Positions 4,917 through 12,746 of a stretch of DNA of 32,384 bases are shown piece after piece. How positions within the stretch are numbered: the stretch's first letter is position 1; every line of letters starts with the position of its first letter. The notes beneath the pieces are model-generated. The model was not told the origin of the DNA, ran no database searches, and worked only from the letters and a program-made list of their open reading frames with translations. Made by a program: the position numbers and the translations under genes. Origin of the DNA: a virus; the IMG/VR virus record IMGVR_UViG_3300032291_001252, positions 1 to 32,384 of that record. One strand, 5' to 3'.

Positions 4917-5110
4917 AAAAAGACAACAGAGGCAGAAAAACAATCCCTGCCGAAACCAAAAAATTAGCAGTAACAATCTACCTGCAATCGCAGGAAATAG
5001 AAAAACTCGGAGGTATAGTTAATTTAAGAAACGATTTAACCAATTATTCTAAAACAAAAATATATGTTACCAACAATCACCAAAGACTACAACAAAACAG
5101 AGTTAATTAA
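4913..5110 (+). CDS. Hypothetical small basic protein
   Basis: 65 residues, basic N-terminus MKKDNRGRKTIPAETKK with an AT-hook-like RGRK, followed by a helix LAVTIYLQSQEIEKLGG. It overlaps the ERF stop by four bases and the next gene by 47 bases. A nucleic acid binding role is plausible but unproven. The end of the reading frame may be less constrained, because from 5064 the next gene uses the same DNA in another frame. Confidence 0.5.
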   Translation: MKKDNRGRKTIPAETKKLAVTIYLQSQEIEKLGGIVNLRNDLTNYSKTKIYVTNNHQRLQQNRVN

Positions 5111-5528
5111 AATTGCAGCCAATTGTACTAATGAGTTATTAGAGAATGGCCGGATCATTGAAACTCACGAATTTATTACTAAAATGGAGTTTTTCATTAA
5201 GCAATTAAAGGAAAACCCTGAGTATTATAATTACCTATCCTATGAGATTGCAAAGTATGGCAGCCATCATATAACATCTACAGGAACACGAATAGAGTTA
5301 GCGGAGGTAGGGGTAAAGTATGACTATACTTTTTGCGAGGATGATAAATATAATGAGATGGTAGTTAAAAAAATGGCATTAGAGGAACAGATTAAAGAGA
5401 GGCAAATATTTTTAAAATCTCTGCCTGTTGAGGGAATAGAAATCTTAGATGAGGATGGTGTTTTAAAACGCATTTATCCACCATCTAAATCATCTACATC
5501 ATCTGTTAAAACAACTATAAGCAAATGA
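5064..5528 (+). CDS. Conserved phage protein of unknown function
   Basis: 154 residues. The N-terminal part is helical (KTELIKIAANCTNELLENG). The middle has TSTGTRIELAEVGVKYDY, the C-terminal third has a coiled stretch MALEEQIKERQIFLKSLP and a tail GVLKRIYPPSKSSTSSVK. I recognise this tail (ERQ-FLKxxPVEG, then YPPSKSSTSS) as recurring in small proteins beside recombination genes of Bacteroidota phages and prophages, with no assigned function. The setting between ERF and the helicase-methyltransferase points to DNA metabolism. It overlaps the next gene by ATGA. Confidence 0.65.
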   Translation: MLPTITKDYNKTELIKIAANCTNELLENGRIIETHEFITKMEFFIKQLKENPEYYNYLSYEIAKYGSHHITSTGTRIELAEVGVKYDYTFCEDDKYNEMVVKKMALEEQIKERQIFLKSLPVEGIEILDEDGVLKRIYPPSKSSTSSVKTTISK

Positions 5529-7684
5529 AAAATTATAAAGAATTTCTAAAAACTAAACAAAAAACAACCACACAATCAGGATTTATAGTTGATCAATTAA
5601 ATCACAATTTATTTGATTTTCAAAAGTTTATTGTTAAAAGAGCATTAGAATCAGGTAAATATGCAATTTTTGCAGATTGTGGATTAGGTAAAACTTTAAT
5701 GCAGCTGGAGTGGTCATATCAAGTTGCAAAGCATACAAAAAAACCTGTTTTAATTCTCGCTCCATTAGCCGTAAAAGGTCAAACTCAAAATGAGGCTATA
5801 AAATTTAATATCAATACTGAATTAATTGAAATCATAAATTATGAGCAATTAGATAATATTGATTGCAGTAAGTATTCAGGTGTTGTATTAGATGAAAGTT
5901 CAATTTTAAAAAACTATGAAGGAGAAACAAAAAAACAGATTATTGATTCATTTAAAAATACTCCATATAAGTTAGCTTGTACAGCAACGCCATCTCCAAA
6001 TGATCCAATGGAATTAGGCAATCATTCAGAGTTTTTGGATGTTATGAGCCGTAATGAGATGCTTGCTATGTATTTTGTTCACGATGGAGGCGAAACTGCA
6101 AAATGGAGATTAAAAGGACACGCTGTTAAGAGATTTTATCAATTCATTGGATCGTGGGCTGTGATGTTAAATAAGCCTCAGGATATTGGATTTAATGTTG
6201 AAGGATATAATTTACCATCACTTAATTTATATGAGAAAGAAATTAAAACAGCAAAGCGTGATAATGGTAGTTTATTTAACGATGCTATAATATCTGCAAC
6301 TAATTTTAATACAGAGTTAAGATTTACAAAAGTAGAGCGTATGGATGAGGTTGCAAAAATTGTTAATAATAGTGATGAAAACTTTATTATATGGATAAAG
6401 CAAAATGAGGAAGGTGAGTTACTAAAATCATTAATACCTGATGCCATTGAAGTTAAAGGGAATGATACACAAGAATATAAAGAAAAAATGTTATTAGGTT
6501 TTGCTGATAATAAATTTAGAGTATTAATAACAAAAACTAAAATAGCTCAATTTGGTTTAAATTATCAGAATTGCAGAAATCAAATCTTTGCCTCATTAGA
6601 TTTCAGTTTTGAAGGATTATATCAGGCAATTCGTAGGAGTTATAGATTTGGTCAAAAGAATGAAGTTAACATTTATCTTATTACAACTGACACAATGAAA
6701 AATGTAAAACAATCAATTGATAACAAACAAAAACAATTTGAAACTATGCAAAAAGAAATGGCTGATGCTATGAATGCAACAATTAATAATGATGTATTAA
6801 CTAAGATTGAGTTTGATACTAAATCTGTAATAAATGAATACTATGAGATACATCGTGGCGATTGTGTTGAATTAATAGAAAATTTAGATGATGAGAGTAT
6901 TGGATTAAGTGTTTTTTCTCCTCCATTTGCTGAATTGTATACTTATTCATCACACATTGAGGATATGGGAAATTCAAAAAATTACAATGAATTTATGCAG
7001 CAATTTTCATACTTAATAAAACAACTATACAGAGTTATAAAGTCCGGTAGAAATGTTGCTATACATTGTATGGATTTGCCTATTCAAAAAGGAAAAGAAG
7101 GATTTATTGGATTGAGAGATTTTAGCGGAATGATATTAAAGGCATTTGAAGATGAAGGATTTATTTATCATTCAAGGGTTACAATTTGGAAAGATCCTGT
7201 AGTAGAAATGCAAAGGACAAAAGCATTAGGATTACTACATAAGCAAGTAAAAAAAGATTCTACTATGAGCCGTGTAGGTATTCCTGATTATGTTTTAATT
7301 TTTAGGAAAGATGGAGAAAGAATTGATCCTGTTACCAATACAGATTTAAGTGTTGATTTATGGCAAAAAATTGCATCGCCAGTTTGGATGGATATAGATT
7401 ATGGCAATACTTTGCAAGGTTATAGAAATGGCAGAGATTCAAATGATGAAAAACATATTTGCCCTTTACAATTAGATACAATTGAAAGATTAATATTATT
7501 GTATTCAAATAAAGGCGATAAGATTTTAACGCCTTTCATGGGTATTGGATCAGAAGTTTATCAAGCTGTTAAAATGGAAAGATATGGTATAGGTTTTGAA
7601 TTAAAAGAGTCATATTATGATTTAGCATCTAAAAATCTATCATCATTAGTTGAAACAAAAAAACAAAAATCTTTATTTATATGA
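5525..7684 (+). CDS. SNF2-type helicase fused to a beta-class DNA methyltransferase
   Basis: 719 residues with two domains. Residues 1-400 are an SF2/SNF2 helicase: Walker A GLGKT (53-57), Walker B LDESS (122-126), motif III TATPSPND (153-160), and motif VI RRSYRFGQ (370-377). After a linker (about 400-440), residues 440-719 form a SAM-dependent amino-methyltransferase in beta order: motif IV SPPF (465-468) comes first, and the SAM-binding motif I FMGIGS (671-676) with GFELKESYYDLA comes last. SPPF is the form usual in N4-cytosine enzymes, while N6-adenine enzymes mostly have DPPY/NPPY, so the methylated base is open. No nuclease domain is present. The phage could use it to protect its DNA while tracking along it. 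The gene is AT-richer than its neighbours (28% and 23% GC in two 60-base lines counted). Confidence 0.88.
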   Translation: MKNYKEFLKTKQKTTTQSGFIVDQLNHNLFDFQKFIVKRALESGKYAIFADCGLGKTLMQLEWSYQVAKHTKKPVLILAPLAVKGQTQNEAIKFNINTELIEIINYEQLDNIDCSKYSGVVLDESSILKNYEGETKKQIIDSFKNTPYKLACTATPSPNDPMELGNHSEFLDVMSRNEMLAMYFVHDGGETAKWRLKGHAVKRFYQFIGSWAVMLNKPQDIGFNVEGYNLPSLNLYEKEIKTAKRDNGSLFNDAIISATNFNTELRFTKVERMDEVAKIVNNSDENFIIWIKQNEEGELLKSLIPDAIEVKGNDTQEYKEKMLLGFADNKFRVLITKTKIAQFGLNYQNCRNQIFASLDFSFEGLYQAIRRSYRFGQKNEVNIYLITTDTMKNVKQSIDNKQKQFETMQKEMADAMNATINNDVLTKIEFDTKSVINEYYEIHRGDCVELIENLDDESIGLSVFSPPFAELYTYSSHIEDMGNSKNYNEFMQQFSYLIKQLYRVIKSGRNVAIHCMDLPIQKGKEGFIGLRDFSGMILKAFEDEGFIYHSRVTIWKDPVVEMQRTKALGLLHKQVKKDSTMSRVGIPDYVLIFRKDGERIDPVTNTDLSVDLWQKIASPVWMDIDYGNTLQGYRNGRDSNDEKHICPLQLDTIERLILLYSNKGDKILTPFMGIGSEVYQAVKMERYGIGFELKESYYDLASKNLSSLVETKKQKSLFI

Positions 7685-7854
7685 TAAAGATGTATTTGAT
7701 AAACAATGTTATCTCTACTAACAAAAAAACAATTTATGGCAGGAGCGGTGAAAGGGTTTACATTATCGCTAATCATCATCCTGCCCTGATTGTTTGCAAC
7801 GAGAAAGGTAATAAATTTAGTACCTCAATAAACAATTTAACTCTAAAAAAATGA
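7681..7854 (+). CDS. Hypothetical 57-residue protein
   Basis: ATG 7681 overlaps the stop of the helicase-methyltransferase (ATGA), and TGA 7852-7854 overlaps the next ATG at 7851, so the gene is coupled on both sides and fills what would otherwise be a gap. The protein begins MIKMYLINNVISTNKK and has alternating hydrophobic residues (RVYIIANHHPALIVC), suggesting a small beta barrel. I recognise no specific family. The double ATGA coupling is the best evidence that it is real. Confidence 0.6.
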   Translation: MIKMYLINNVISTNKKTIYGRSGERVYIIANHHPALIVCNEKGNKFSTSINNLTLKK

Positions 7855-8141
7855 CATTAAAAAACAGGATTGATTACCACAAAAAAAACCCACAGATTTA
7901 TGAGATGTATAAAAAATTTGCATTTCAGGCAATTAAATCTAAGCGTCCATATTACTCATCAGAGATGATTATAAACCGGGTAAGATGGGAAACTATGACC
8001 AAAGCAGAATCAGGGTTTAAAATCGCAAACGAAATGAAAGCGTTTTATTCTCGTTTATTCGTACTTGAATATCCTACCTATCAAAACTTTTTTAAACAAC
8101 GTCCTTCAATCTGTGATGGCCTTAAACTTAAAATGATATGA
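7851..8141 (+). CDS. Conserved phage protein of unknown function
   Basis: 96 residues, basic. The pattern RPYYSSEMIINRVRWET followed by GFKIANEMKAFYSRLFVLEYP and FFKQRPS recalls a small protein common in phages of aquatic bacteria, in which a helical RVRWE block precedes FYARxFMxxYPxxxxFFxxR. Its function is unknown to me. The layout suggests a compact helical DNA-binding fold. Coupled by ATGA at both ends to the neighbouring early genes. Confidence 0.65.
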   Translation: MTLKNRIDYHKKNPQIYEMYKKFAFQAIKSKRPYYSSEMIINRVRWETMTKAESGFKIANEMKAFYSRLFVLEYPTYQNFFKQRPSICDGLKLKMI

Positions 8142-8641
8142 GGCATCCATTAGAAAGAGATGATACGTTTAGTTACACAGCATCGGATATAATTCACATT
8201 GCCTGTTACTACTTAGATTTAAACCCATCAACGATAGTAAAAAGCAGTCGTAGTAAAGAGTATGTAATTGGCAGGATGTTTATTTATGATTTGCTTTTGT
8301 ATAATAGGAATTTGGATTTAACGATTGTGAAATTAGGTTATTTATTTGGTAGGCATCATTCCTCAGTAATTAACGCACGTGATGAGTTTAATAAGTACTT
8401 AGATGTTTACGATGATATGAGGCATAAACTGGAGAATTTGCATTTAAATGTTTACAGGCATTTAGATTACTATAATCATTCAATTTCAAAATCAAAAAAG
8501 GATAATGAAAGCACAAAAAAAATACTGATAGATATTCCTGAATCAATGTTTTATGATATGCTTTCACGATCCAAAAAAACTGATATAACACTATCTGAGA
8601 TTATCGTTAAATGTGTTGATAAATCATTGGCAGAAATCTAA
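8138..8641 (+). CDS. DnaA domain IV-like protein with ribbon-helix-helix-like C-terminus
   Basis: 167 residues. Residues about 14-95 follow DnaA domain IV closely: SDIIHIACYYLDL, the SSRSKEYVIGRMFIYDLL helix, LTIVKLGYLFGRHHSSVINA, which matches the DnaA-box-reading signature GRDHSTVxHA, then DEFNKYL. The AAA+ ATPase part of DnaA is absent. Residues about 125-167 (KKILIDIPESMFYDMLSR, then TLSEIIVKCVDKSL) look like a ribbon-helix-helix unit: one strand and two helices. It may bind DnaA-box-like sites to start, or compete for, replication, or repress transcription. It ends just before the promoter and structured leader of the replication gene, so it is a good candidate regulator of that site. 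Confidence 0.75.
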   Translation: MRHPLERDDTFSYTASDIIHIACYYLDLNPSTIVKSSRSKEYVIGRMFIYDLLLYNRNLDLTIVKLGYLFGRHHSSVINARDEFNKYLDVYDDMRHKLENLHLNVYRHLDYYNHSISKSKKDNESTKKILIDIPESMFYDMLSRSKKTDITLSEIIVKCVDKSLAEI

Positions 8642-8658
8642 AATTTTTTGTATTTTAG
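8627..8658 (+). promoter_or_regulatory. Candidate Bacteroidota-type promoter for the replication operon
   Basis: TTG at 8627-8629 and TATTTTAG at 8651-8658 are 21 bases apart, near the TTG/TAnnTTTG pattern; the last part of the -7 box differs. The -33 part lies in the end of the DnaA-like gene. The start of transcription would fall near 8664, exactly where the first stem of the folded leader begins. Confidence 0.42.
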
Positions 8659-8664
8659 AGTTAC

Positions 8665-8731
8665 AATTTCTTCACGTATAGCAGCCGAGAAGAAATTAAT
8701 TTCAACCACTAAGGGTTCGTGCTGCTGCTAT
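8665..8731 (+). ncRNA. Structured 5' leader, predicted pseudoknot, before the replication gene
   Basis: Three helices can form in the 112-base gap 8642-8753. P1: AATTTCTTC (8665-8673) with GAAGAAATT (8689-8697), nine perfect pairs. P2: AACC (8704-8707) with GGTT (8714-8717), loop ACTAAG. P3: ATAGCAGC (8678-8685), which is in the loop of P1, with GCTGCTAT (8724-8731), eight perfect pairs. P1 and P3 cross, giving an H-type pseudoknot with linkers of 4, 3 and 26 bases, which is sterically possible. It is followed by a short spacer, TTTTTT (8743-8748) and the ATG at 8754. Likely roles are control of translation or transcription of the DUF4373 gene by ligand or protein. No known riboswitch class is recognised. 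Confidence 0.62.
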
Positions 8732-8753
8732 CGGTACGGACCTTTTTTATTTT

Positions 8754-9449
8754 ATGAAAAAAAGCACTTATTATTTTTCACACGATTACAACGCTGCCAA
8801 CGATGTCAAAATACTTTTTATGAGGCAGCAATTAGGCATGGAGGGTTACGGAATATACTGGTACTTAATAGAACATTTAGCTGATGCAGGAGGGCGTTTA
8901 CCTTTAAAAATTATCCCTGTTTTAGCAATGCAGATGCAATCGCAGGAAATAAAAATAAGGGCGGTAATTTCGGAATTTGAGTTGTTTGAAATCGTTGATG
9001 ACACATTTTTTTCAATTCGTCTTTTAAATAACTTAGACAGAGTTAACGATTTGAAAATCAATAACTCAATCAAAGGTAAATTATCTGCTGAAAAAAGAAA
9101 ATCAACTGCGGTTGAACAGCGGTTGAACAGCGGTGCAACAAAGGAAAGGAAAGGAAAGGAAATAAAAGGAAATGAAATACAGAATGTTTTTAGTGAAAAT
9201 TTTTTAGTACACTGGCAAAATTGGATTGATTATAAAAAAACATCACATAAATTTGTTTACAAAACTGAAACGTCATTAAAAATTTCTTTTGAAAATTTGG
9301 TCCGCCTTTCTGCAAACAACGAACAAAACGCCATTGAAATAATAAACCAATCCATCGCAAACGGATGGAAAGGATTTTTTGAAATTAAAACCACACAAAA
9401 TGCAAATCGTATTGAATCAGTCGTTAATTGGGCAAATCAATTCCAATAA
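8754..9449 (+). CDS. DUF4373 (Lin1244/Lin1753-like) replication initiation protein
   Basis: 231 residues. The N-terminal domain (about 5-90) has the family pattern YFSHDYNAANDVKILFMRQ, then GMEGYGIYWYLIEHLADAGG and a second winged-helix part ending in FSIRLLNNLDRV. Residues about 105-140 are a low-complexity, lysine-rich linker encoded by tandem repeats (9108-9134 and 9143-9162). The C-terminal part (about 148-215) has the replication-protein ending HWQNWIDYKK, then NAIEIINQSIANGWKGFFEI, as in DnaD/Lin1244-type initiators. These proteins are thought to open or mark phage origins and bring the host helicase. It has its own promoter candidate and structured leader, so its level seems closely controlled. 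Confidence 0.85.
   Translation: MKKSTYYFSHDYNAANDVKILFMRQQLGMEGYGIYWYLIEHLADAGGRLPLKIIPVLAMQMQSQEIKIRAVISEFELFEIVDDTFFSIRLLNNLDRVNDLKINNSIKGKLSAEKRKSTAVEQRLNSGATKERKGKEIKGNEIQNVFSENFLVHWQNWIDYKKTSHKFVYKTETSLKISFENLVRLSANNEQNAIEIINQSIANGWKGFFEIKTTQNANRIESVVNWANQFQ
9108..9134. repeat. Iteron-like 11-bp tandem repeat inside the replication gene
   Basis: GCGGTTGAACA occurs at 9108-9118 and again directly at 9119-9129, followed by the partial GCGGT at 9130-9134. The unit is 11 bp, one DNA helical turn and not a multiple of three, so it is not explained by a repeated peptide. It lies in the part encoding the linker, as the lambda origin iterons lie inside gene O. Origin function is inferred. Confidence 0.6.
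9143..9162. repeat. Purine tandem repeat (GGAAA)x4 in the linker of the replication gene
   Basis: Four exact GGAAA units, followed by AT-rich sequence with another GGAAA after 9163. They lie 8 bases after the iteron-like repeat. They encode a Lys/Glu/Gly linker and could be low-complexity drift, but an all-purine strand beside iterons is also what an easily unwound origin part looks like. Confidence 0.55.
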
Positions 9450-10110
9450 TTCAAAAAGGATTGCTGAATGCAACGATGTTGAAATCGGGCAAACCCTTGC
9501 AAAGATTTTTGTAATGGTCGGGCTCAGGGGTAAAAACATGCCCTCCGAAATTGAATCTAAATTGTTATTCCAAAAAATTAGGGAATACTACCCACACAAA
9601 AAATTAGATGAGTTGGTACTGGCTTTTGATTTAGCGATACAAAAAAAAATAAATGCTGAGGTAAATGTTTATGATCAATTTACTTTACCTTACCTCACGG
9701 AAATAATGGATAAATACAGGGTTTATGTAAATGAACTGGCAAAGGATATTCCTGTTGAAATACCAAAGCAAATAGAATACAAAATGACAGATGCAGAAAA
9801 GTTAAATGACATTGATGAATTTGGCAAAAATCCGACTGCCTTTAACATGATACCCGGTTACATTTACGATTGGATTATTGAGTTAGGATTAATGATTATT
9901 GATGAAAATGAAAAATTAGAATACTATCGAAGGGCAATTCAAATGAGGGAAAGTGAGTTAAGAAAAAATGCTGAGTTTGGCGATGTCAAAGAATACACTG
10001 CATTTATGAAATCCAAAAAAAATGAATTTGCCGACATCAGCAAACAGGAGGTATTAAACATTGAATTTAATTACAAACGTATTGTGGTACGTGAATACTA
10101 TAACCGATGA
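9400..10110 (+). CDS. Hypothetical replication-region protein
   Basis: 236 residues from ATG 9400, giving a 50-base overlap with the replication gene; the next Met (Val-Gly-Leu-Arg context, about residue 39) would cut into a conserved-looking helix. The N-terminal half is helical with LFQKIREYYPHKKLDELVLAFDLAIQ, then FTLPYLTEIMDKYR. The second half is charged, with MRESELRKNAEF. The helical pattern recalls helicase loader or loader-inhibitor N-domains such as SPP1 G39P, but there is no P-loop, so it is not a DnaC-like ATPase. Its place after the DUF4373 gene suggests a replication partner. Function unknown. Confidence 0.6.
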   Translation: MQIVLNQSLIGQINSNNSKRIAECNDVEIGQTLAKIFVMVGLRGKNMPSEIESKLLFQKIREYYPHKKLDELVLAFDLAIQKKINAEVNVYDQFTLPYLTEIMDKYRVYVNELAKDIPVEIPKQIEYKMTDAEKLNDIDEFGKNPTAFNMIPGYIYDWIIELGLMIIDENEKLEYYRRAIQMRESELRKNAEFGDVKEYTAFMKSKKNEFADISKQEVLNIEFNYKRIVVREYYNR

Positions 10111-10679
10111 TCAATAAAATAGAATTGCATAATTCCATATTAAATGGAGATTGTGTTTTTGAGGAATGCAGATGGGAAAGCGTTAAACATTTATTTTTAA
10201 CTCATCATTATTTAAAAACTATGCCTGCTGGTATATTTGCTGTTTATGGTTTATTTGATAAAACAAATTTATATAATGCAATAGGAGCAGCAGTTTTTTC
10301 AAATGGTAGGATTCAATACGATGGAAAATATATTGAGTTTAGTAGAATGTGGATGAATGATGAATACAAAACAAATACAGAAAGTTGGTTTATTTCAAAA
10401 TGTTTAAAATTATTAAAAAAGAAATATCCAACATATGAGGGAGTTGTTACTTGGTCGGATTCTAATAAAGGTCATAATGGTATAATTTATTTGGCATCAA
10501 ATTTTGTTTATGATGGTCAAAGTAGAAAAGTGTATAAATATGTTGGAACAAATAAAAAAATAATATATCAAAGGACAGCAAATAAAAATCATATTTGTAT
10601 AGGGCATGATAAGCCAAAAAAAAGATTTATTTATTATTTTGATTCAAAAAAAAGAGAGTTATTAAAAAAAAATAAATGA
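10107..10679 (+). CDS. Mom-like DNA modification protein (GNAT-related)
   Basis: 190 residues. The core EFSRMWMNDEYKTNTESWFI followed by KCLKLLKKKYP, VVTWSDSNKGHNGIIYLASNF and VYDGQ matches the pattern of the phage Mu Mom family (E-L-x-R-L-W, then N-T-x-S-W-F-x-x-x-L, then S-Y-A-D-x-x-x-G-H-x-G-x-x-Y-x-A-x-N). Mu Mom is a GNAT-related enzyme that turns adenine in phage DNA into a carbamoylmethyl-type derivative and so blocks many restriction enzymes. The gene is very AT-rich (28%, 20% and 27% GC in three 60-base lines counted), far below the next gene, which hints at recent acquisition. It is coupled by ATGA to both neighbours. Active-site residues were not verified one by one. Confidence 0.78.
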   Translation: MINKIELHNSILNGDCVFEECRWESVKHLFLTHHYLKTMPAGIFAVYGLFDKTNLYNAIGAAVFSNGRIQYDGKYIEFSRMWMNDEYKTNTESWFISKCLKLLKKKYPTYEGVVTWSDSNKGHNGIIYLASNFVYDGQSRKVYKYVGTNKKIIYQRTANKNHICIGHDKPKKRFIYYFDSKKRELLKKNK

Positions 10680-10960
10680 TTAGACGCACTGATGCCAACC
10701 ATAAAAAATTGATTGATAAAATAAGGCAGATACCATCTGCATCGGTATTCAGCACCCACGAAGTTGGCAAAGGGTTTCCCGATATTGTTGTGGGTTATCG
10801 TGGATTAAACTACATGTTTGAAATTAAGGATGGCAAAAAAACCGCCTCAAAAAAAAAACTAACTCAGGCAGAAATAAAATTCCATAGTAATTGGACCGGG
10901 CAGATTAGTGTTGTTGAAAAAATTGAGGATATTTTAAACATATTAAAAATAAAGGTTTAA
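10676..10960 (+). CDS. VRR-NUC domain nuclease
   Basis: 94 residues, the size of free-standing phage VRR-NUC proteins. The PD-(D/E)xK core is visible: GKGFPDIVVG with Asp36, and MFEIKDG with Glu49 and Lys51, followed by the family's third block LTQAEIKFHSNW (Gln64). These nucleases act on branched or flapped DNA and are often found with SNF2 helicases in phages, as here, where a SNF2-type protein is encoded at 5525-7684. A role in resolving recombination intermediates made by ERF, or in cleaning replication products before packaging, fits. Overlaps the Mom-like gene by ATGA. Confidence 0.85.
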   Translation: MIRRTDANHKKLIDKIRQIPSASVFSTHEVGKGFPDIVVGYRGLNYMFEIKDGKKTASKKKLTQAEIKFHSNWTGQISVVEKIEDILNILKIKV

Positions 10961-10969
10961 TTTTAGCAA

Positions 10970-11485
10970 GTGAAAACCTGTAATGATTTAATCGTTGAGA
11001 TTTATCAGGATGCGAAAATTAATAATTTAATCGCAAAAATAAAGCCGACTGAATTACAGGAGGATTTAAAACAGGAGTTGATGTTGATCTTACTAGAAAT
11101 GAATTGCAGCAAGTTAAAGGAGTTAAAGCAATGCAATTCTTTGCTGCATTATGTCATCAGGATTATTACAAATATGGCTATGAGTAACAACTCGCCATTC
11201 TTTTACAAATACAAAAAAAGCGATACTGCTAAGCTATTAGATTACATCAGGTCGCAATCGGGATTTTATCCAATACATTTGGCAGACATTGCAAAAAAGG
11301 ATTTAGAAAAAAAGTTGACTAGTAATGCAAACGAGGCGCATGAATCAATGATTTTTTCAAAGTATGTGGAAATAAGAAACTGCCAAAAGGTTGCTGATTA
11401 TTTCGGAGTTCCTCATAAACACGTTTTTGACGTAGTTAAAAAAACAAAAAACCATTTAAAAACCATAATCAAAAAAGAATGTTAA
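10970..11485 (+). CDS. Sigma factor-like regulatory protein
   Basis: 171 residues from GTG 10970, nine bases after the nuclease stop; no in-frame ATG lies nearby. The N-terminal part resembles sigma region 2 (LQEDLKQELMLILLEM, then LLHYVIRIITNMAMSNNSPFFYKYKK). The C-terminal part, about 130-165 (YVEIRNCQKVADYFGVPHKHVFDVVKKTKNHL), looks like the region 4 helix-turn-helix. Similar short sigma-like proteins recur between the replication and late genes of Bacteroidota phages. It probably redirects host RNA polymerase to late promoters. I saw no clear late promoter motif to test this. Overlaps the next gene by seven bases. Confidence 0.55.
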   Translation: MKTCNDLIVEIYQDAKINNLIAKIKPTELQEDLKQELMLILLEMNCSKLKELKQCNSLLHYVIRIITNMAMSNNSPFFYKYKKSDTAKLLDYIRSQSGFYPIHLADIAKKDLEKKLTSNANEAHESMIFSKYVEIRNCQKVADYFGVPHKHVFDVVKKTKNHLKTIIKKEC

Positions 11486-11739
11486 TCGTTAGCGCATCAC
11501 TTTTCTTTTCATTTTATTTTATTCATGTTGCCAGAATACCTGCATCAATTAAAAATGGCTTGAAGTTTAAAGCACATCAAAGGTTAAAGCCACTGGATTG
11601 TTTTTCCTGTTTACCTGTTTGGATAGCTGCGGTATTATATTTATTACCTGAGTTTGTCAGTTTATTTATTTGTATTATATTTGGTGCGGGTTGTATTGCA
11701 AATGCTTTGCTTTGGATTTTAAATAAAAGTATAAAATGA
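11479..11739 (+). CDS. Small membrane protein with CxxC motif
   Basis: 86 residues, predicted membrane helices at about 2-18 and 46-82 (the latter probably two short spans, WIAAVLYLLPEFVSLF and ICIIFGAGCIANALLWIL). Between them is a basic segment and KPLDCFSCLPVW, with a CxxC pair that may bind metal or form a disulfide. It sits between the sigma-like gene and the first glycosyltransferase, coupled to the latter by ATGA. It could help the sugar cassette act at the membrane or affect superinfection. Function unknown. Confidence 0.6.
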   Translation: MLIVSASLFFSFYFIHVARIPASIKNGLKFKAHQRLKPLDCFSCLPVWIAAVLYLLPEFVSLFICIIFGAGCIANALLWILNKSIK

Positions 11740-12746
11740 AAATACTAGGACTGAGCCACCCTCAATCAGGTTGCGGTTATCATCGTGTTGTTTTGCCATT
11801 GATAACAATGCCTGATGTTAAGGGAGTAATTACAAATTATCCAAGCGAAGAAACTTTGGCAGATAAATACGATATACTACTATTCAATCGTGTTAGTCAA
11901 TTTGATGGCAACTTTGAACATGTTAGAAATCAATTAGGTTGCAAAATTGTTGTTGATATGGATGATGACTGGGAGTTACCCTCTAATCATTTGAATTATG
12001 CCGATTATCAAAGAATGGGTTTGCAGATTGAACAGAATTTGATGGATGCGGATTTGGTTACCTGTACTCACGAACGACTAGCAGCAAAGATATACCCACT
12101 AAATAAAAATGTTTTAGTCCTGCCAAATGCAATTCCTTTTGATCATTATCAATTTATAGATAAAAAAATTGAATCGGATTTAGTTAGGATATTTTGGTGC
12201 GGAGGGATAACACATGAGGGCGATTTAGAAATAATAAAGAATCCAGTGCGCAGGTTGCAGGCGCAAAGGGATAAAATTCAAATGGTTATTGGCGGCTACA
12301 ATCAGGATAACCCTTTGAGTAAATGGCTTTGGGATAAAATGGTGAGCTACTTTACCGATTCAAAGAAATTAAACCACGAAGTAATAAACTCAATGAGCGT
12401 TGATAAGTATATGGCTATGTATGAGCAGGCGGATATTATGTTAGTGCCATTGCTTAAATCGGATTGGGCAGCAGGGAAATCTAATTTAAAACTATTAGAG
12501 GCATCGGTTAAAAGCGTTCCTGTAATATGCTCAGCAGTTGAGCCGTACATTAACGATACTGATGCGCCTGTGTTGTGGGTGCATAAACAATCGGATTGGT
12601 ATAAGCATTTAAATTTTTTAATTAACGATAAAGCAGCACGTTTAGAATATGGCAAAAAAATCAATGAGTGGACAAAACGAAAGTACAATCTTGTCGAGGT
12701 TAATGCTACCCGGAAAGCCGCATTTGCAGACCTTATTAAAGCATAA
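11736..12746 (+). CDS. Glycosyltransferase, GT-B fold (GT4-like)
   Basis: 336 residues. The N-terminal Rossmann half begins MKILGLSHPQSGCGYHRVVLP, with DMDDDWE at 74-80 and DADLVTC at 104-110. The C-terminal half begins near IFWCGGITHEGDLE (152-164) and has the nucleotide-sugar-binding region at 246-266, AGKSNLKLLEASVKSVPVIC, typical of GT4 enzymes, with the E of LLEAS as the expected conserved acid. It should move a sugar from a nucleotide donor to an unknown acceptor. With the GT9-like and FkbM-like genes downstream it forms a glycan cassette, unusual in a 32-kb phage. Confidence 0.85.
   Translation: MKILGLSHPQSGCGYHRVVLPLITMPDVKGVITNYPSEETLADKYDILLFNRVSQFDGNFEHVRNQLGCKIVVDMDDDWELPSNHLNYADYQRMGLQIEQNLMDADLVTCTHERLAAKIYPLNKNVLVLPNAIPFDHYQFIDKKIESDLVRIFWCGGITHEGDLEIIKNPVRRLQAQRDKIQMVIGGYNQDNPLSKWLWDKMVSYFTDSKKLNHEVINSMSVDKYMAMYEQADIMLVPLLKSDWAAGKSNLKLLEASVKSVPVICSAVEPYINDTDAPVLWVHKQSDWYKHLNFLINDKAARLEYGKKINEWTKRKYNLVEVNATRKAAFADLIKA

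Follow-up and report, generated by a model that had tools for sequence, protein, structure and literature searches.

The leader locus and its two hairpins

The window analyzed here is a whole stretch of 32,384 nucleotides from IMG/VR virus record IMGVR_UViG_3300032291_001252. A gap at 8642–8753 lies between a gene for a protein with a DnaA C-terminal-like domain (8138–8641) and a DUF4373/Lin1244_N gene of the replication-initiator type (8754–9449, plus strand). The latter is the first gene of an operon, and its product matched PF14297 (E 2e-9) and a PHROG of replication initiation proteins (E 1.7e-10). The second gene (9400–10110, plus strand) had no Pfam or PHROG match and sits where other phages have a DnaC-like helicase loader, a likeness of position only. 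Based on the annotation of DUF4373 relatives in named phages as replication initiation proteins, and on a DnaC-like helicase loader being next in two of them, we consider this to be a replication operon. Two genes downstream of DUF4373, the product of 10107–10679 matched the Mom DNA-modification family (PF25680, E 1.4e-24). The short protein encoded upstream of the gap resembled a DNA-binding domain of the DnaA C-terminal type, with a score slightly under the curated cut-off (PF08299, E 7.7e-7), and could mark or bind an origin.

An earlier note on this DNA had reported two crossing, perfect helices in the gap, and both are present. Helix 1 pairs AATTTCTTC (8665–8673) with GAAGAAATT (8689–8697) over 9 bp, and helix 2 pairs ATAGCAGC (8678–8685) with GCTGCTAT (8724–8731) over 8 bp. 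They are as unlikely to have arisen by chance as that note supposed: with a finder script that seeks two hairpins with complementary loops, and favors complementary loops by design, the leader scored 27.8, the best of 2000 dinucleotide shuffles scored 24.6, and none reached the observed value.

The topology proposed in the note, an H-type pseudoknot with a nested hairpin, had to be revised. The minimum-free-energy fold contains the hairpin built on helix 1 (HP1) and a 14-bp hairpin that had been missed (HP2, 8711–8745), which is the longest terminator-like site within 5000–12000. The 3′ arm of helix 2 is exactly the 7-nt loop of HP2 plus its closing base, and the crossing helix is therefore a kissing loop between two hairpins. 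The nested 4-bp hairpin (8704–8717) competes with the HP2 stem and is not conserved; with 69% of cells paired, no better than shuffles, and one pair broken in seven of ten relatives, it was rejected.

All parts of the element lie on the plus strand. The promoter (8628–8658) comprises TTG at 8628–8630 and TATTTTAG at 8651–8658, a variant of the Bacteroidota −7 box TAnnTTTG. HP1 (8665–8697) has the 9-bp stem (8665–8673/8689–8697), above which are an A·A mismatch, two more pairs (8675–8676/8686–8687) and a loop (8677–8685) holding the 5′ kissing strand ATAGCAG(C) (8678–8685), whose pairing with 8724–8731 is perfect. After the linker (8698–8710), which contributes to the 40 nt between the two 7-nt kissing strands, comes HP2, AAGGGTTCGTGCTG-CTGCTAT-CGGTACGGACCTTT, a terminator-like stem of −17.5 kcal/mol with the 3′ kissing strand CTGCTAT (8725–8731) as its entire 7-nt loop. 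Directly after HP2 is TTTATTTT, and the U-tract TTTTTTATTTT (8743–8753) extends from the end of HP2 up to the start codon. The kiss (8678–8685/8724–8731) lies 22 nt before the start codon of the rep gene, so that a leader loop pairs just upstream of it. On paper, an ORF with a TTG start (8648–8884) overlaps the leader and starts upstream of the predicted 5′ end of the RNA (about 8663); unsystematic inspection revealed no conserved ORF in the leaders.

Distribution, structural types and covariation

Relatives were collected in IMG/VR scans with the DUF4373 protein, with an alignment and with three further relatives, and amounted to several hundred loci, many of them overlapping. Most are metagenomic fragments, and two are contigs of Chitinophagaceae MAGs (L082, L083). 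Apart from these two, a Bacteroidota host is suggested by the promoter type and by the lineage of more distant relatives in genomes. In most loci the finder returned the same architecture right before the gene, with different loops, and scores of at least 24 were reached in 12 of 60 regions upstream of DUF4373 versus 4 of 10068 control windows. These control windows, a slid-column control and independently recruited loci served as safeguards against the bias of the finder.

The leader was present within 3.5 kb in 73 of the 74 distinct loci of the core clade, defined by a close DUF4373 (HMM score at least 240), and in 69 of these 73 it stood directly before DUF4373. In the 74th locus (L019/L293) the loops AAGGCGAA and TTCGCCTT were recognized by eye, and both were confirmed in the sequence. 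Among phages with a distant DUF4373 (HMM score below 240), 15 of 98 passed the script within 3.5 kb, several marginally, and the RNA was absent from the 4 kb upstream of the distant DUF4373 in the named phages Porphyromonas phage005, EF62phi, Flavobacterium phage 1/32 and LBR48. Strong matches in 246 genomes from the family of the Chitinophagaceae MAG UBA8137 were confined to the two contigs of UBA8137 itself. Four weak matches in the same genomes (L209–L212) had no convincing kiss and were taken as chance; low-score finder matches such as L186, L191, L192, L267 and L270 are probably chance as well and support no claim made here. Each phage has one copy, at the head of the operon.

The leaders could be sorted into three structural types. 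Type A (the window, L003, L005, L018 and L059) combines a long HP1 with an almost uninterrupted HP2, type B (L011–L079 and others) has a short HP1 of 4–6 bp and an internal loop in HP2 above a 4–5-bp GC base, and type C (L022, L070 and L134) carries in its linker one more small hairpin, whose loop is of the GNRA type. The sequences of the HP1 stem, linker and HP2 differ between the types, with no evident shared core. Common to all types are an HP2 loop of mostly 7 nt and the spacing of the kissing strands, with a median of 40 nt in 34 leaders. The HP2 internal loop is semi-conserved in L012 (2900–3003) and other type-B leaders and is possibly a protein-binding or non-canonical motif. One type-B leader, L084 (1100–1356), has the promoter box and HP2 without HP1, through either a deletion or an assembly fault; it is on a 3.2-kb contig in a Sphingomonadaceae MAG, to which this phage contig may have been mis-binned.

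Covariation was assessed in a MAFFT alignment of ten type-A leaders; a type-B MAFFT alignment with a misaligned ATTGCAG group was left out of the counts. HP1 had 98% of cells paired and covariation in 8 of 11 pairs, the kiss 97% and 5 of 7, and HP2 93%, with a double-sided change in 10 of 14 pairs. All helices together were paired in 95.9% of cells, with double-sided changes in 23 of 32 pairs; when the partners were shifted by one to three columns, pairing fell to 42–52%. The homologous leaders change both strands together, the opposite of the broken helices that, according to the earlier note, would have counted against the structure. In addition, 17 distinct 7-nt loop pairs were paired in 119 of 119 cells versus a maximum of 97 with randomly dealt partners, although these pairs had been chosen as complementary and the slid-column test is the cleaner of the two. 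Later scans added the loops GGACAGACC, ATGCGAC, ATTGCGC and CTCTCAC. Covariance models that held no kissing information recruited L185, L134, L070, L022 and L010, as well as L340, L352, L271/273/275 and L246, and all of these kiss. In total at least 20 different loop pairs were found, all complementary, and with so many different matching pairs among the phages, the pairing clearly matters.

Minimum-free-energy folds of five leaders, covering all three types, gave HP1 and HP2 with an open 7-nt HP2 loop. Complementarity is largely limited to the loops and at most one closing pair; based on this and on the covariation of both the HP2 stem and the kiss, it is probable that stem and kiss form together, in a kissing complex, and do not exclude each other. 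A pair of hairpins whose loops of about 7 nt are fully complementary is also what characterizes ColE1-type kissing complexes, the loops of ColE1 RNA I and RNA II being 7 nt long and fully complementary. The ColE1 interaction is intermolecular and antisense, whereas that in the leader is intramolecular with a spacing of about 40 nt. By analogy, we argue that a fully paired 7-nt kiss would be spatially compatible with HP2.

Overall, the loops do not evolve faster than the scaffold or four-fold sites, and between close relatives they are as conserved as the scaffold. For this reason, block changes aside, we rejected the idea that hypervariable loops mark immunity or incompatibility. A striking block exchange of loop specificity was seen between L014 (2900–3003) and L028 (2900–3003), whose scaffolds are 97% identical and which differ in both kissing loops at the same three positions (GTACGAG versus GTTGCAG).

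Promoter, U-tract and the genes behind the leader

In 29 of 34 leaders, HP1 is closely preceded by an exact TAnnTTTG, compared to an expectation of about 0.018 per 20-nt slot. The promoter-like box of the earlier note lies where the relatives have this motif, but the window's own TATTTTAG is a degenerate version of it. In Flavobacterium, the sigma-A box TAnnTTTG spans −12 to −5 (PMC9723704). Based on this position, the 5′ end of the RNA would be at or near the base of HP1, at about 8663 in the window, and the U-tract would end 85–90 nt after it. All 34 leaders have a U-tract with at least 6 T in 8, including those in which the next gene is not DUF4373; it is interrupted in part of type B (TATTTTATTT), in L022 (ATCTTATTTTT) and in L020 (AATTTTATTTT). 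HP2 energies across the leaders range from −11.6 to −19.9 kcal/mol. A stable stem with a U-tract directly behind it, between a promoter and the first gene, is the anatomy of an intrinsic-terminator attenuator.

The leader is at the operon head whichever gene comes first. It precedes a SNF2-like helicase in L114 and L002, a helicase-methylase in L255, a DNA methylase in L352, a DnaG-type primase in L246 and small ORFs of 62–67 aa in L007 (2809–2997), L010 (2801–3001), L134 (3801–4004) and L244 (3452–3640). These first genes are on the same strand as and upstream of DUF4373, which follows 200–2900 nt further on. The distance to the next ORF is also variable, with 26 nt in L010 and, in L125, a 420-nt gap behind a terminator that has kept its U-tract. 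A binding site specific for the DUF4373 protein, as the earlier note had suggested, does not fit with the same RNA standing directly before helicase, methylase, primase and small-ORF genes. The small ORFs were considered as a shared regulator and rejected, having no homologue in the window and only sub-threshold Pfam matches, none above the curated cut-off. The window itself encodes, at 5525–7684, a SNF2-like helicase fused to an N6/N4 DNA methylase; in L114 and L255, the gene that comes straight after the kissing RNA is of this make-up, coding for a helicase in the former and a helicase-methylase in the latter.

Of the 34 start codons that come first after a leader, 26 have T at −3, and the other genes in the same loci have A at −3 in 116 of 208. 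Adenines at −3 and −6 favor translation in Flavobacterium (PMC6847099), and at the leader-linked starts U replaces the A-rich −3/−6 context of the other starts. The retention of the RNA before different genes and the U-rich start context together favor an action on transcription, with which translational effects would be compatible.

A candidate attenuator and its alternatives

The analysis supported the proposal that the gap encodes a previously undescribed leader RNA that is structured, looks regulatory and has both a promoter of its own and a crossing helix. Comparison with Rfam 15, which the earlier note had called for, gave no matches in the window, none that was convincing in 8400–9000 at E up to 5 and none in 16 relatives. 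In the open-licence literature on kissing leaders, put RNA, rep attenuators and structured phage RNAs, mostly at the level of titles and abstracts, the element is undescribed. Judged by sequence comparison, the leader represents a new family of phage RNA, probably acting in cis and about 85–90 bases long, before many Bacteroidota phage replication genes.

We consider it probable, on balance, that the leader is a promoter-proximal kissing-loop attenuator that acts in cis, with HP2 as an intrinsic terminator gating the replication operon. RNA polymerase would start at about 8663, giving an RNA that begins with HP1; some 40 nt later the HP2 loop would emerge and pair with the HP1 loop over 7–8 bp. 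The HP2 stem would then close, the U-tract would follow, and transcription would in many cases stop there, leaving a compact RNA of about 85–90 nt. Read-through, set by the folding of the kissing complex and perhaps also by a phage or host factor, would yield mRNA for the initiator and the downstream replication genes. The operon would be gated by conditional termination at HP2, with the HP1 loop bound to the HP2 apex. The kiss may raise or lower termination, and the sequence fits both.

A related anatomy is that of put antitermination, in which the kissing complex would bind the polymerase at the RNA exit channel and make it resistant to HP2 and to terminators beyond it without a protein factor. 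The put RNAs of HK022 (putL and putR) are described as phage early-operon RNAs with two stem-loops in about 70 nt, putL being directly downstream of its promoter (PMC9378689). Our 34 leaders likewise have two hairpins, with the TAnnTTTG box a few nucleotides before HP1 and a promoter that is presumably early, a layout within the roughly 70–90 nt of a putL-like element, and each phage carries the element once, at the head of the operon; the first terminator to be overcome would be HP2 and its U-tract. The put fold is described as having a minor-groove triplex, and the part of the description considered here mentions neither a kissing loop nor a terminator U-tract (PMC9378689); HK022 also belongs to a different phylum. 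We regard this reading as unlikely. A trans-acting small RNA, stable after termination, whose loops would pair with the leaders of co-infecting or sibling genomes in the manner of antisense copy-number control or of phage immunity based on RNA, is rather unlikely. It would account for the leader having its own promoter and terminator, for the 5′ end at a hairpin, for the 420-nt gap behind the terminator in L125 and for the change of both loops as a block on scaffolds that differ by 3% (GTACGAG versus GTTGCAG), and both kissing loops and groups of loop specificity are typical features of how plasmids control their replication (PMC10724649). However, each loop has its partner on its own RNA, at an almost constant distance, and this favors an action in cis, and the loop rates carry no general sign of diversifying selection. 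Nor was a conserved antisense promoter detected, the search of 16 leaders for a minus-strand −7 box being a weak test with a single box pattern.

Translation can be controlled by leader pseudoknots in T4 gene 32 and ColIb-P9 repZ, and with these precedents HP2 and the kiss could mask or expose the ribosome-binding region, with the DUF4373 protein perhaps recognizing them as an operator. They end 8–12 nt before the start codon, and the first AUG is usually 8–13 nt from the start of the U-tract. We think this quite improbable, since the form of the RNA is kept before unrelated first genes that are 26 nt (L010) or 420 nt (L125) away and the start context is U-rich rather than A-rich. The earlier note had put forward a riboswitch-like element. 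In a ligand-binding riboswitch of this kind, the kissing core would serve as the aptamer and HP2 as the expression platform. The combination of leader and terminator agrees with it, and loop-loop kisses occur in known riboswitches, but positive support is absent: types A, B and C have no evident shared core and hardly any positions in common outside the helices, and there is neither an Rfam match nor an association with metabolic genes, which makes this reading very improbable. Finally, HP2 could be no more than the terminator of the operon upstream, with the helices a product of chance; taken alone it is terminator-like, and it lies after the gene for the DnaA C-terminal-like protein. This reading is hardly credible given the shuffle result, the covariation of HP1 and the kiss, and the conservation of a promoter box that separates HP1 from the upstream gene; the coevolution of the loops, as read from the alignments, already contradicts it.

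The kissing-loop attenuator shares features with plasmid replication control. The ColIb-P9 repZ leader pseudoknot is a plasmid element that acts on translation, with leader-peptide coupling and an antisense RNA; here, by contrast, the partner is the terminator loop and there is no conserved antisense promoter in the leaders searched. In ColIb-P9 and the I-complex, too, a leader hairpin loop pairs just upstream of the replication initiator gene (repZ or repA), and replication is controlled by RNA (PMC10724649). In the rep attenuators of pIP501 and pT181, too, transcription stops prematurely in the leader of a gene for a replication initiator (PMC4981023). In those plasmids an antisense RNA sets termination, whereas the phage leader has the complementary loop built into it, and an antisense promoter overlapping the leader did not appear in the 16 leaders by the same single-pattern, weak test.

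It is possible, if doubtful, that the leader switches transcription by RNA alone: a 5′ hairpin, while still nascent, would catch the loop of the terminator that follows it and in this way directly decide termination or arm the polymerase in a put-like manner, with interchangeable loop pairs making the switch of each Bacteroidota phage distinct. The role of the leader is probably that of a gate on the onset of phage DNA replication. As an RNA family it is unlisted, and the comparative evidence for it is unusually clean; it is located at the head of a replication operon, in phages of a phylum for which little is known about how phage genes are controlled. Should termination depend on the kiss, the leader would be a minimal and portable switch made of RNA, and its natural loop pairs, at least 20 in number, could be tested by swapping. 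If this is true, Bacteroidota phages would gain an RNA device comparable to HK022 put or the plasmid rep attenuators.
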